Part shown: in pieces, positions 7,204-47,672 of the stretch
Position numbering within the stretch: the first letter of the stretch is position 1
How the letters are laid out: every line of letters begins with the position of its first letter
Source: an uncultured Hyphomicrobiales bacterium
GTDB taxonomy: Bacteria > Pseudomonadota > Alphaproteobacteria > Rhizobiales > Xanthobacteraceae
DNA: 51,339 nucleotides
Assembly: GCA_903885555.1 (NCBI GenBank)
Contig: CAISIV010000190.1
Span: 1 to 51,339 of the forward strand
Reading direction: 5' to 3'
Program-made: the position numbers and the translations under genes
Notes under the pieces: generated by a model
Databases searched by the model: none
The model's input: the letters and a program-made list of their open reading frames with translations, nothing else
What the model was told of the DNA's origin: nothing

Positions 7204-7228
7204 CCAAGCGAAAACAATCAGCGCTTGG
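7204..7228. promoter_or_regulatory. inverted repeat upstream of TauE/SafE copy 1
   Basis: Perfect 7-bp arms CCAAGCG (7204-7210) and CGCTTGG (7222-7228) with an 11-bp spacer. It ends 10 bp before the start codon at 7194. It could be an operator, or a hairpin in the 5' leader. Confidence 0.3.
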
Positions 7229-7311
7229 ATGGACGACGGTCACATCTGACGGGGAGGCTGCGAAAACCCCGTGCGACTCATTTACCGCGCCGTCTTGGTC
7301 CCGGCAAGGTC

Positions 7312-23801: not shown

Positions 23802-23819
23802 CTTCGGTCATGACCGAAG
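23802..23819. promoter_or_regulatory. perfect 18-bp palindrome in divergent promoter region
   Basis: CTTCGGTCATGACCGAAG. It lies between the ICL/PEP-mutase gene (start 23716) and the hydroxy-acid oxidase (start 23885). An ATG inside it is in frame with the oxidase, but using it would put an operator-like palindrome in the coding region, which favours the downstream GTG. Confidence 0.5.
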
Positions 23820-23884
23820 CGCTGGCGGTCGGCCCCGGTCTGCGGCAATGTCCGCCGCAATACGAACCGAGCCGGAGGAATGCC

Positions 23885-24940
23885 GTGGACAGTGTCGATT
23901 TCGATGCCCTGGAACATCAAGCCCACGCGAAAATGCCGCCGGCCTCGTTCGCATTTTGTGCCGCGGGAGCGGACGACGAAATCAGCGTTGCAGAGAATAT
24001 TTCGGACTGGCGGCGCTTGCGGCTGCGGCCGCGCGTGCTGCGTAGCGTCGAGAACGTCGACACCAGCGTGACGCTGCTGGGTCAGAAAATGTCGACACCG
24101 ATCATGGTGGCGCCGACCGGCCGTCACAAACTGTTTCACCCGCAGGGCGAAGCCGCCACCGCGCGCGGTGCCACGATGGCTGGCATGCCGTATTGCATGG
24201 CGAGCAATTCGAACATTCTGATCGAGGATGTCGCCGCCGAACGCAAAGCCGCGCCGCAATGGTTCCAGCTCTATTATTGGCCGAACCGCGCCGAGGTCGA
24301 GGCGCTGATCGACCGGCTACACGCCAACGGCTTCACCGCGCTGGTGTTGACGGTCGATGCGCCGGTCGGCGGCTGGTCGCCGCGTGCCGCGCGCGAGCAG
24401 CACGAACCGTCGCCCGATATTCTCAACATCAACATGCCGGGCTCGCCGATGGCGCGCACCGCCTATCATCCCGATTTTGCCGGCAAGGTTCTGTTTCCGG
24501 CCACTTGGCGCGAACTGGAATGGCTGGTGAAGCGCTCGCCGATGCCGGTGCTGGTCAAAGGCGTGCTGCGCGCCGACGACGCAGTGGCCTGCGCCGAGCA
24601 CGGCGCGAAGGCCGTCATCGTTTCCAATCATGGTGGCCGTCATCTCGACACGACGGTGACAACGGCCGCCGCGGTCGAGGAGATTGCGTCGGCTCTGGCC
24701 GGCAAGGCGGAAGTTTATGTCGATGGCGGCATCAGGCGTGGCACCGATATTCTGAAAGCCCTGGCGCTGGGCGCGCGTGCCGTGCTGATCGGCCGGCCGG
24801 CAATCTGGGGCCTGACCATGAATGGCGCCGATGGCGTGCGCGATGTGCTCGAGCATTTCCGTGTCGAACTGGTGCGCGCGATGCAGCTCACCGGCTGTGC
24901 CAGCCTCAAGGACATCACGCGGGACTTGGTGGCCGATTAA
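23885..24940 (+). CDS. FMN-dependent alpha-hydroxy-acid oxidising enzyme
   Basis: 351 aa from the GTG at 23885, which has GGAGG at 23874-23878, six bases upstream. An in-frame ATG at 23810 would add 25 non-family residues and lies in a palindrome. TIM-barrel FMN motifs: PIMVAPTGRHKLFHPQGE, WFQLYYWPNR, LVLTVDAP, VLVKGVLRADDA, the catalytic His and substrate Arg in IVSNHGGRHLDT, and VYVDGGIRRGTDILKAL. Compared with glycolate oxidase, the substrate-binding Tyr of YDYY is Phe here (FAFC) and the Arg after TVDTP is Val, so the preferred hydroxy acid probably differs. Whether it is an oxidase or a quinone-linked dehydrogenase is open. Confidence 0.85.
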   Translation: MDSVDFDALEHQAHAKMPPASFAFCAAGADDEISVAENISDWRRLRLRPRVLRSVENVDTSVTLLGQKMSTPIMVAPTGRHKLFHPQGEAATARGATMAGMPYCMASNSNILIEDVAAERKAAPQWFQLYYWPNRAEVEALIDRLHANGFTALVLTVDAPVGGWSPRAAREQHEPSPDILNINMPGSPMARTAYHPDFAGKVLFPATWRELEWLVKRSPMPVLVKGVLRADDAVACAEHGAKAVIVSNHGGRHLDTTVTTAAAVEEIASALAGKAEVYVDGGIRRGTDILKALALGARAVLIGRPAIWGLTMNGADGVRDVLEHFRVELVRAMQLTGCASLKDITRDLVAD

Positions 24941-25060
24941 CCCTCCGCTACCCCGCGCGTGCCCGATTATTCCGACACCGACTTGTGATCGCCGGGGCCG
25001 TCTTCGCCCTTGTGCCGCCCTGCCATTGGACTACGTCAGGGTCATCACAAGGAGGCCATC

Positions 25061-25318
25061 ATGCCGTCACTCACATTGAAGCTTCTCGCTGGCGTCGTTG
25101 TATTCGCCTTCATCGTTCCGGCGCAGGCCGAGACCGTGCGCAAGCACAAGAAGATCGCCGGCGTTCACGCAATGGCGCAGTCGCAAGAACGCGGCACCGA
25201 TAAATTCCGGTCAGGCCCCATCTATGACGGCCGCACCTATCTTGGCGATGACCCGGACCCGTTCATCCGCTCGCAACTGGCGCGCGACGTCAACGCGATT
25301 TACGGCGGCAACAACTAG
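25061..25318 (+). CDS. small exported protein of unknown function
   Basis: 85 aa, ATG at 25061 with a strong ribosome site AAGGAGG ending 5 bases before it. A signal peptide covers about residues 1-23 (LLAGVVVFAFIVPAQAE). The mature part is short, basic at first (RKHKKIAG), then RSGPIYDGRTYLGDDPDPFIRSQLARD. No family is recognised; similar small periplasmic proteins with a YDGRxYLGxDPDP motif occur in rhizobial relatives as far as I recall. It stands alone between the oxidase and the aminotransferase. Confidence 0.65.
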   Translation: MPSLTLKLLAGVVVFAFIVPAQAETVRKHKKIAGVHAMAQSQERGTDKFRSGPIYDGRTYLGDDPDPFIRSQLARDVNAIYGGNN

Positions 25319-25337
25319 CTCGCCTCTCATTGATTTT

Positions 25338-25401
25338 CCCCGGCCAATCGGGTGAACTGCGCCGCAAAACAATGCGCGGCGCAGAGCGCCGGTTGCCGGG
25401 G
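25338..25401 (+). ncRNA. 64-nt hairpin leader of the aminotransferase gene, burying its ribosome site
   Basis: The outer stem pairs CCCCGGC (25338-25344) with GCCGGGG (25395-25401) and extends by six more pairs past one bulged C. After a small internal loop, the inner stem pairs CTGCGCCGC (25357-25365) with GCGGCGCAG (25376-25384), loop AAAACAATGC. That is about 22 pairs. The Shine-Dalgarno GGGGAG (25398-25403) lies largely in the 3' arm, six bases from the ATG at 25410. The arrangement suggests control of translation initiation, though a REP-type palindrome that happens to sit here is the alternative. Confidence 0.5.
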
Positions 25402-25409
25402 AGAATTCA

Positions 25410-26591
25410 ATGCTCAAGACCATCGCGGCCTTCGACCGCATCGGCGAGGAAAATGCTTTCGCGGTACTCGCCCGCGCCAATGCGCTGATCGCGCAAGGCC
25501 GCGACGTCATTAACCTCGGTATCGGCCAGCCTGATTTCCGCACGCCGGAATTCATCGTCGAGGCGGCGATCAAGGCGCTGCGCGACGGCCATCACGGCTA
25601 TACCGCGGCCAACGGCATCGTGCCGCTGCGCGAGGCGGTCGCCGCCGATCTGCACAAGCGCTACGGCGTCGAAGTCTCGCCGGATGCCGTGATGATCATG
25701 CCCGGCGGCAAGCCCACCATGTTCATGTCGATCCTGATGTTCGGCGAGCCGGGTGCCGAGATCATGTATCCCGATCCGGGTTTCCCGATCTATCGCTCGA
25801 TGATCGAGTTCACCGGTGCGACGCCGGTGCCGGTGCCGATCCGCGAGGAAAACGGCTTTGCCTTCTCGGCGGAGGAAACGCTCAAGCTGATCACACCGAA
25901 AACCCGGCTCATCATTCTCAATTCGCCGGCCAATCCGACCGGCGGCGTCACCGGCAAGGCCGAAGTCGACAAGCTGATCGACGGTCTGGAGAAGTGGCCC
26001 GACGTCGCCATCATGTCGGACGAGATCTACGACCAGATGACTTATGACGGCGAGAAGCACGTCTGCCTGCTGTCGTATCCGTCGATCCGCGACCGGCTGA
26101 TTCTGCTCAATGGCTGGTCGAAAACCTACGCGATGACAGGCTGGCGACTCGGCTACGCCGTGTTTCCGCCGAAGCTTTACGACTATGCGCGCAAGCTCGC
26201 GGTCAATCTGCATTCCTGCGTCAACGCCTCGGCGCAATATGCCGGCCTCGCGGCGCTCAAAGGCCCGCAGGACGAAGTGCGCGCGATGGTCGCCGAGTTC
26301 GACAAGCGCCGCAAAGTCATGGTCGAGGGTCTGAACAAGTTGCCCGGAGTTTCTTGCGCAACACCAAAAGGTGCGTTCTACGCGTACCCCAACATCAAGC
26401 GCACCGGCTGGAAGGCCAAGGCGCTGGCCTCGTCGCTCTTGGAAGATGCCGGCGTCGCCATCATCGGCGGTCCGGACTTCGGCATTCTCGGCGAAGGCTA
26501 TGTGCGCCTGAGCTACGCCAACTCGACCGAGAACATCCTCAAGGCGCTCGGCCGCATGAACGAGTTTTTGTCGACCAGGAAGGCAGCTTAG
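25410..26591 (+). CDS. PLP-dependent aminotransferase, class I/II
   Basis: 393 aa, fold-type I. Motifs: LGIGQPDFRTPEFIVEAA, GYTAANGIVPLREAVA, ILNSPANPTGGV, SDEIYDQMTY, and the PLP lysine Lys238 in NGWSKTYAMTGWRLGY; the substrate-carboxylate Arg is in YVRLSYANSTENI. This matches the aspartate aminotransferase Ib-like subgroup, which often acts on aromatic or branched amino acids or alanine. Substrate unknown. The ATG at 25410 follows a long hairpin that overlaps the ribosome site (see 25338). The gene is followed by a palindromic repeat pair enclosing a nuclease remnant. Confidence 0.88.
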   Translation: MLKTIAAFDRIGEENAFAVLARANALIAQGRDVINLGIGQPDFRTPEFIVEAAIKALRDGHHGYTAANGIVPLREAVAADLHKRYGVEVSPDAVMIMPGGKPTMFMSILMFGEPGAEIMYPDPGFPIYRSMIEFTGATPVPVPIREENGFAFSAEETLKLITPKTRLIILNSPANPTGGVTGKAEVDKLIDGLEKWPDVAIMSDEIYDQMTYDGEKHVCLLSYPSIRDRLILLNGWSKTYAMTGWRLGYAVFPPKLYDYARKLAVNLHSCVNASAQYAGLAALKGPQDEVRAMVAEFDKRRKVMVEGLNKLPGVSCATPKGAFYAYPNIKRTGWKAKALASSLLEDAGVAIIGGPDFGILGEGYVRLSYANSTENILKALGRMNEFLSTRKAA

Positions 26592-26601
26592 TTTCTTTCT
26601 T

Positions 26602-26660
26602 ACCCTCTCCCCGTTGGGGGAGAGGGTGGTCCGGCCGAAGGCCGGACCGGGTGCGGGGGC
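26602..26660 (+). repeat. family B palindromic repeat, left copy
   Basis: Two adjacent hairpins and a tail. ACCCTCTCCCC (26602-26612) pairs with GGGGAGAGGGT (26617-26627). GGTCCGGCC (26628-26636) pairs with GGCCGGACC (26640-26648) around GAA. The tail is GGGTGCGGGGGC (26649-26660). It starts 10 bp after the aminotransferase stop. The same architecture recurs inverted at 26867-26934 and twice at 47557-47672. Confidence 0.85.
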
Positions 26661-26661
26661 A

Positions 26662-26946
26662 ATGGTCAAGTACGAGCGTCCACCTCGCGCGACGGCGAAC
26701 GCCCGCACGATGCGCCGCGAGCAGACCGACGCCGAACGCGATCAATGGCTGACAAACGAAGGCTATGTTGTCGTGCGCTACAGCAACGTCGACATTCTCA
26801 AGAACCCCGACGGTGTGTTGTCGGACCTTTCAAGCCAACTTGAAGAGAGGCGCAGGGTTTTAGATCGCTCCCCCTCACCCGGTCTCGGCTCGCAAGGCTC
26901 GCCTCGACCACCCTCTCCCCCAGAGGGGAGAGGGAAAGAGGTCTAG
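26662..26946 (+). pseudogene. remnant of a DUF559 (Vsr-like endonuclease family) gene, catalytic core deleted
   Basis: The frame starts at ATG 26662, two bases after the left repeat. Residues 1-23 carry the DUF559 N-terminus (ARTMRREQTDAE: A-R-x-[ML]-R-R-x-x-T-[DE]-A-E). The text then jumps directly to the family C-terminus, RDQWLTNEGYVVVRYSNVDI, then LKNPDGVLSDL. The middle of roughly 60 residues that normally holds the nuclease motifs (family pattern FRRQ...DF.C...E.DG..H) is absent, as by one in-frame deletion. The reading then runs through the right repeat (SPSPGLGSQG..., PPSPPEGRGKE) to a TAG at 26944. It cannot be a working nuclease. Its terminus overlaps the end of the convergent MscS gene. 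Confidence 0.7.
26867..26934 (-). repeat. family B palindromic repeat, right copy (inverted)
   Basis: Read on the minus strand it has the same order as the left copy: CCCTCTCCCC (from 26934) and GGGGAGAGGGT (to 26910) form a hairpin, then GGTC...GACC (26909-26881) with a different, longer inner stem, then GGGTGAGGGGGAGC (26880-26867). The central stem sequences differ between copies while the ability to pair is retained in part, so structure rather than sequence is conserved. Confidence 0.85.
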
Positions 26947-47530: not shown

Positions 47531-47556
47531 GGCTCGAGCTGTCGGCTACGGCTTAT

Positions 47557-47672
47557 CCCTCCCCGGTCACGGGGAGGGTGGACGCGAAGCGTCCGGGTGG
47601 GGCGATGTGCAACGGATGGACAACCCCACCCCCGTCGCTTCGCGACGGTTCTCTCCCCTTTCAGGGGAGGGG
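47557..47672. repeat. family B palindromic repeat, inverted pair without cargo
   Basis: Left copy: CCCTCCCCG (47557-47565) pairs with CGGGGAGGG (47570-47578); GGACGC (47580-47585) pairs with GCGTCC (47589-47594) around GAA; tail GGGTGGGG. Right copy, inverted: CCCCACCC, then CCGTCGC (47632-47638) with GCGACGG (47642-47648) around TTC, then CTCCCC (47653-47658) with GGGGAG (47664-47669). About 20 bp separate the copies. Same design as the pair at 26602-26934, but with nothing between. It lies in the convergent gap between the Bug gene and lepA. Confidence 0.85.

Follow-up and report, generated by a model that had tools for sequence, protein, structure and literature searches.

Upstream of a class I/II aminotransferase gene in the window (the whole 51,339-nucleotide stretch of DNA that was analysed), a conserved sequence element overlaps the 5' arm and extends into the loop of a long hairpin, the 3' arm of which holds the Shine-Dalgarno-like site of the gene. 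This element is probably the promoter of the aminotransferase unit, possibly with an overlapping operator, and the sequence comparisons below point to a role as DNA and not as folded RNA. Only the window and its nearest relative (G066) have the hairpin in a strong form; in a second locus (L046) it is weaker, and it is not conserved along with the element. We lean slightly towards a joint reading, in which a promoter in the 5' arm is combined with a fold-back by the complementary leader, the promoter part carrying most of this confidence. A functional fold-back of read-through RNA, which would be limited to one lineage, is possible when taken by itself, with the balance tipping somewhat against it. 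The features concerned are the following:

23810-24940, + strand: FMN-dependent dehydrogenase-like gene, from which read-through might come.
25061-25318, + strand: small gene (85 aa) with a signal-like start, ending 11 nt before the element.
25328-25365 and 25376-25412, + strand: arms of the long hairpin (34 pairs, from RNA folding), with the loop at 25366-25375.
25330-25369, + strand: conserved promoter-like element, TTGATTTT-N9-AT-N4-TGAANT-GC-N5/6-AAA, from a 51-copy information profile and a 50-copy alignment.
25330-25335, + strand: putative -35-like hexamer TTGATT, the TTG being present in 51 of 51 copies, though the search pattern demanded TTG.
25353-25358, + strand: putative -10-like hexamer TGAACT, separated by 17 nt from the -35-like hexamer.
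25366-25367, + strand: predicted transcription start in an A-rich block, at the first loop bases.
25376-25412, + strand: 3' arm, i.e., the 5' leader expected in transcripts from the gene's own promoter (from folding and leader comparison).
25398-25403, + strand: Shine-Dalgarno-like GGGGAG, inside the 3' arm.
25410-26591, + strand: class I/II aminotransferase (Aminotran_1_2, 393 aa; Pfam 1.4e-61).

The initial annotation had described a hairpin of about 22 bp over 64 nt that hides the ribosome site of the aminotransferase, with GGGGAG in the closing arm and an ATG six bases further on. These letters and coordinates are correct (the ATG is at 25410), and the hairpin is real but more extensive, with the 34 pairs given above. 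Folded as RNA, positions 25320-25430 reached -58.5 kcal/mol, a stability that none of 200 dinucleotide shuffles attained (-37.4 ± 4.06 kcal/mol; z = -5.2), and 25327-25413 folded alone gave -55.9 kcal/mol. An 85-nt frame slid along the 51-kb window gave 10,251 stretches (mean -29.0, sd 6.3); of those that do not overlap, 25326-25410 ranked third in stability, the top one being a palindromic repeat at 26601. When 25327-25365 was kept fixed and the remaining leader was shuffled with its dinucleotides kept (100 shuffles), the z value was -8.0, so that composition alone does not account for the complementarity of the arms. In RNA with both arms the ribosome site, measured on its six-base core GGGAGA, had a mean pairing probability of 1.00, so that it is indeed hidden there, and all three bases of the start codon were paired in the hairpin. 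In RNA starting at 25366 the same site had a pairing probability of 0.49, i.e., it was still about half paired, and the fold of 25366-25430 was no better than that of its shuffles (z = +0.38).

A REP element or other dispersed palindrome, which according to the initial annotation would refute its reading, is not supported: the hairpin is present as a single copy in its own genome (4.27 Mb, 320 contigs; self match 1.7e-44, next match E 0.10 over 17 bases), while a 32-nt, 91% second copy of the neighbouring palindromic repeat was detected by the same kind of search. This very stable repeat, of the CCCTCTCCCC...GGGGAGAGGG type, lies at 26600-26670 with a partial second copy at 26906-26937, and its copies flank a short DUF559 frame (26614-26946). 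A further stable palindrome was observed at 47551-47635.

Of 67 NCBIfam models matched by the aminotransferase, 25 were shown, and it scored below the cut-off of each of these; its sequence relatives of solved structure include aspartate and aromatic aminotransferases. For the small upstream protein, neither Pfam nor NCBIfam gave a match. At least a dozen relatives had a homologue of the dehydrogenase in their loci, and several had a relative of the small protein. In the scanned interval 24900-25500, the + strand showed no terminator-like site and the - strand showed one (25391-25377); a consensus promoter scan of this interval reported no promoter.

The region upstream of the gene was compared in 110 aminotransferase loci (the best 30 of one search's matches and the best 80 of 569), which yielded 93 distinct leaders in a sample that leans to close relatives. 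The element was present within 1 kb upstream in 51 of the 93 leaders, and in 43 of these it lay at most 140 nt from the start codon. Counted from its TTG (25330), it consists of TTGATTTT, about nine free bases, AT at positions 18-19, G at 22, TGAAnT at 24-29, GC at 30-31 and an A-rich patch at 37-40, with A in 29 of 51 copies at position 37 and in 41 of 51 at position 38. As TTG..TT and AA are demanded by the search pattern, which permits three spacings, these positions are conserved partly by construction. The spacing constraint was removed by a count in which 4 to 25 free bases were allowed between the two boxes, and here 43 of the 93 leaders had exactly 16 free bases, two had 7 and none had any other number. 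Two boxes 17 or 18 nt apart and then an A-rich patch are arranged like the -35 box, -10 box and start site of a promoter. Both TTGATT and the 17-18 nt spacing would fit an RpoD (sigma-70) promoter, while the -10-like TGAACT is non-canonical, far from the consensus and a poor match; in some orthologues CTAAAG or CTAATG stands in its place. As the strength of the motif and its gene specificity exceed those of an ordinary promoter, another factor may be involved. Information in the leader profile was near zero upstream of the element and low beyond about position 44, so that conservation extends over the 5' arm into the loop but not to the 3' arm, for which no general conservation was seen beyond close relatives.

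The element is tied to the aminotransferase across genomes. A strict pattern was found in 7 of 60 genomes, at one site each and with 0 control matches, and five of the seven sites were directly upstream of the aminotransferase (the window, G017, G021, G027 and G031). Of the other two, one was 556 nt upstream (G022) and one was parted from the gene by an assembly gap (G034). This gap of 18 N (L119, 1480-1497) lies between the element and about residue 37 of the aminotransferase, and for this reason the L119 leader cannot be judged. With a sequence-only model of the element, a single strong match was obtained in the own genome (7.2e-9; next 0.28). In a set of 40 genomes, 16 had a match at E up to 1.3e-4, of which 15 were on the contig of the aminotransferase and one, in G005, followed a dehydrogenase gene on a different contig; the remaining 24 had no strong match (best E 0.0088 or weaker, or none). 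Matches at the loci from which the model was derived are circular, and this does not apply to the absence of strong matches elsewhere or to the matches in further genomes. Among 149 genomes of the family, 31 matched at E ≤ 0.01, 29 of them at the aminotransferase unit: in 27 the aminotransferase followed at 16 to 1,605 nt from the element on the same contig, and in two (G065, G119) it was directly downstream of the element, though unlisted by the protein search at its cut-off. Weak matches located elsewhere than the aminotransferase were the only ones in G087 and G102 (0.008-0.009), and one of the 27 genomes (G078) had a second weak match elsewhere (0.005). In the sample searched, the 29 genomes represent 13 genera of one family, and since the aminotransferase was found at the cut-off used in 86 of the 149, the element is not universal. 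The initial annotation had considered the hairpin specific to the aminotransferase; the conserved 5'-arm sequence is indeed tied to this unit, and the hairpin itself is absent in most orthologues examined.

The position of the element relative to the gene varies. In one leader (L082) it reaches the ATG itself, as in a leaderless message. Where a gene for a small membrane protein intervenes (L012, L022, L042, L058, L066, L079, L187 and L188), the element precedes that gene, lying 544-833 nt from the aminotransferase in the first six and farther in L187 and L188. The intervening protein carries ALGYGD or ALGYGE in these loci, a motif which we take to be potassium-channel-like. L060 is an exception, with the element 232 nt upstream and no channel gene between, and counts against the explanation preferred below, as do the 24 of 40 relatives without a strong model match. 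A promoter-like TTGAC site precedes the aminotransferase after the channel-like gene in L012, L022, L042, L058 and L066, and L199 duplicates the sequence of L079 at the element. In the 49 leaders without the element directly upstream (L076 was not counted, its leader being shorter than 110 nt), TTGAC was present at the same interval in 19 compared with 2.2 expected, and a pair of TTGAY and a -10-like box in 12 compared with 0.11 expected; both patterns were picked after the leaders had been read. This excess suggests that the interval tends to hold promoters even without the element.

Upstream of most orthologues the hairpin is not conserved, as became apparent when 43 leaders (L082 left out, L157 added) were folded with the element fixed and the rest shuffled. 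Next to the window's -8.0, the z value was -3.4 in its nearest relative (L157, from G066) and -1.8 in L046, and the other 40 leaders had a mean of +0.19, only L081 (-3.05) and L085 (-2.97) falling below -2. When contact between element and leader was considered alone, 8 of 43 leaders reached about -2 or lower (window -8.5, L157 -4.5, L085 -3.4, L046 -3.2, L096 -2.7, L018 -2.5, L014 -2.2 and L019 -2.0), and the ribosome site paired with the element at a probability of at least 0.80 in 5 of 43 (window, L018, L046, L085 and L096), a count that does not include L157. Covariation across orthologous leaders, proposed earlier as a check, was absent between the inverted ends of the element over 50 copies and marginal when the window structure was imposed on six close leaders: 46, 50, 23, 54 and 28 of 500 shuffles reached the five measures, a comparison in which the gap placement of L010 is doubtful and in which slid controls favour the window structure, from which the structure was taken. 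An inner stem CTGCG/CGCAG, considered as a conserved part, is present in the window, L157, L046, L018 and L106, but was set aside, covariation of the whole hairpin being only marginal. In the tree of the aminotransferase, which includes L157 as a partial gene of 259 nt, the window and L157 are sisters and L046 stands apart. The leader and the dehydrogenase (87%) of L046 resemble those of the window while its aminotransferase is on another branch, which suggests a recombinant locus or a chimaeric assembly.

The explanation that we prefer joins these observations. In this lineage the 5' leader is nearly complementary to the probable promoter, so that the two together form the long hairpin. Transcription would start near 25366, at the hairpin loop, and the gene's own messages would be devoid of the 5' arm and have a more accessible GGGGAG. 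As the 5' arm lies upstream of this predicted start, the hairpin would be formed only in read-through RNA: transcripts coming from the small upstream gene or the FMN-dehydrogenase gene would be the only ones to hold both arms, to fold and to be translated poorly, the net effect being an aminotransferase insulated from upstream transcription. The computed differences between long and short RNA (1.00 vs. 0.49 in ribosome-site pairing, z of -5.2 vs. +0.38) count for this layout, and the missing terminator-like site on the + strand would be only permissive for read-through. Against the fold-back count its support from two or three leaders and the case of L010, in which the protein is 96% identical and the element is present without the hairpin.

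The same case of L010, the weak or absent hairpin in all leaders other than those of the window and G066, including the mean z of the 40 remaining leaders, and the marginal covariation among the six close leaders favour an alternative in which the promoter does lie in the 5' arm and the hairpin is an incidental quasi-palindrome without regulatory role, made or perfected by mutation, e.g., by template switching at an inverted repeat. This alternative fits less well with the extreme z value of the window and with the pairing of the ribosome site, which is kept in the window, L157 and L046 despite differing spacer and 3'-arm bases, and we regard it as rather unlikely, although it fares best among the rivals.

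Two further alternatives place the function in RNA. The element could act as mostly unpaired RNA, such as a protein or small-RNA binding site in the leader, and its high conservation over about 40 nt, its gene specificity and its T-rich and A-rich ends would agree with this. The -35/-10-like geometry at one fixed spacing, the extension of the element up to the ATG in L082, the hundreds of bases that part it from the aminotransferase in loci with an intervening gene and the free variation of the remaining leader argue against it and make it improbable. No pair was predicted by RNAalifold in the 50 aligned copies of the element (L049, a poor match, was left out). A conserved RNA stem between the TTTGATTT and AAATCAA ends was also considered and rejected, as it is perfect or nearly so in few loci (e.g., L081, L084, L087 and L092), paired in 57.5% compared with 58.5% in shuffles, and showed no covariation over the 50 copies. 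A cis-acting translational switch responding to an amino acid or to temperature (riboswitch, RNA thermometer or leader attenuator), as proposed in the initial annotation, would account for the fully buried ribosome site in RNA with both arms and for the gene-specific placement, but is very improbable given the promoter-like sequence of the 5' arm, the lack of a consensus fold, the lack of excess structure in most orthologues and the absence of Rfam matches at the leader (whole window at gathering scores) and in ten loci at E up to 5. In the window, Rfam placed a chrB-b RNA (RF03086; 42.3 bits, above the gathering score) at 7218-7271 on the - strand, which is unrelated to the hairpin.

The element and the leader, which are complementary by chance or through evolution, are thus most likely a promoter and its leader and not a sensor. 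We put forward only tentatively that a single-gene promoter/operator is served by a dedicated regulator and that one lineage has evolved a fold-back insulator from the promoter DNA; the promoter DNA itself would then be the strand that silences the read-through mRNA of a chromosomal metabolic gene. The gene-tied element is the more interesting part of these results and was absent from the initial annotation. Independently of the fold-back, it offers a testable regulatory site of the aminotransferase unit in Pseudolabrys and related bacteria, and no paper joining Pseudolabrys, aminotransferase and promoter was found in a literature search. A caution also follows for the interpretation of such structures: a ribosome-hiding hairpin seen in DNA may be absent from the normal mRNA if a promoter lies in one of its arms.

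Among known systems, the transposase genes of IS10 and IS50 are subject to fold-back inhibition of external transcripts. As proposed for the aminotransferase, incoming transcripts would hide the ribosome site and those from the own promoter would not, whereas no mobile element was seen here and the hairpin is single-copy. A literature search did not retrieve the fold-back inhibition of IS10, nor was it found by a term search of PMC5006887 or in passages of PMC8450116.

RpoD-like promoters of Bradyrhizobium, likewise an alphaproteobacterium, are given as TTG-N16-18-TATA in PMC4842269, which also reports 192 start sites exactly on the start codon. The element shares with these promoters the TTG, a -10-like box at 17-18 nt and an A-rich start, and differs from them by TGAA or CTAA in place of TATA, by much extra conservation and by its tie to one gene.

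The closest layout is that of gene e (lysozyme) of phage T4, and also of T4 soc, 49 and I-TevI, where the ribosome site is buried in a helix as it is here. According to PMC3014915, the long early transcripts of gene e fold and are blocked about 100-fold, while its late promoters are located within the DNA coding for the 5' strand of the helix, so that their messages are without that strand. For gene e the structure, the 5' ends and the 100-fold effect are reported, while for the aminotransferase the start site and the read-through are inferred. The present gene is moreover chromosomal and metabolic, and its promoter is not of the T4 late type. If the fold-back is true, it would represent a chromosomal, metabolic example of the layout documented in phage T4.
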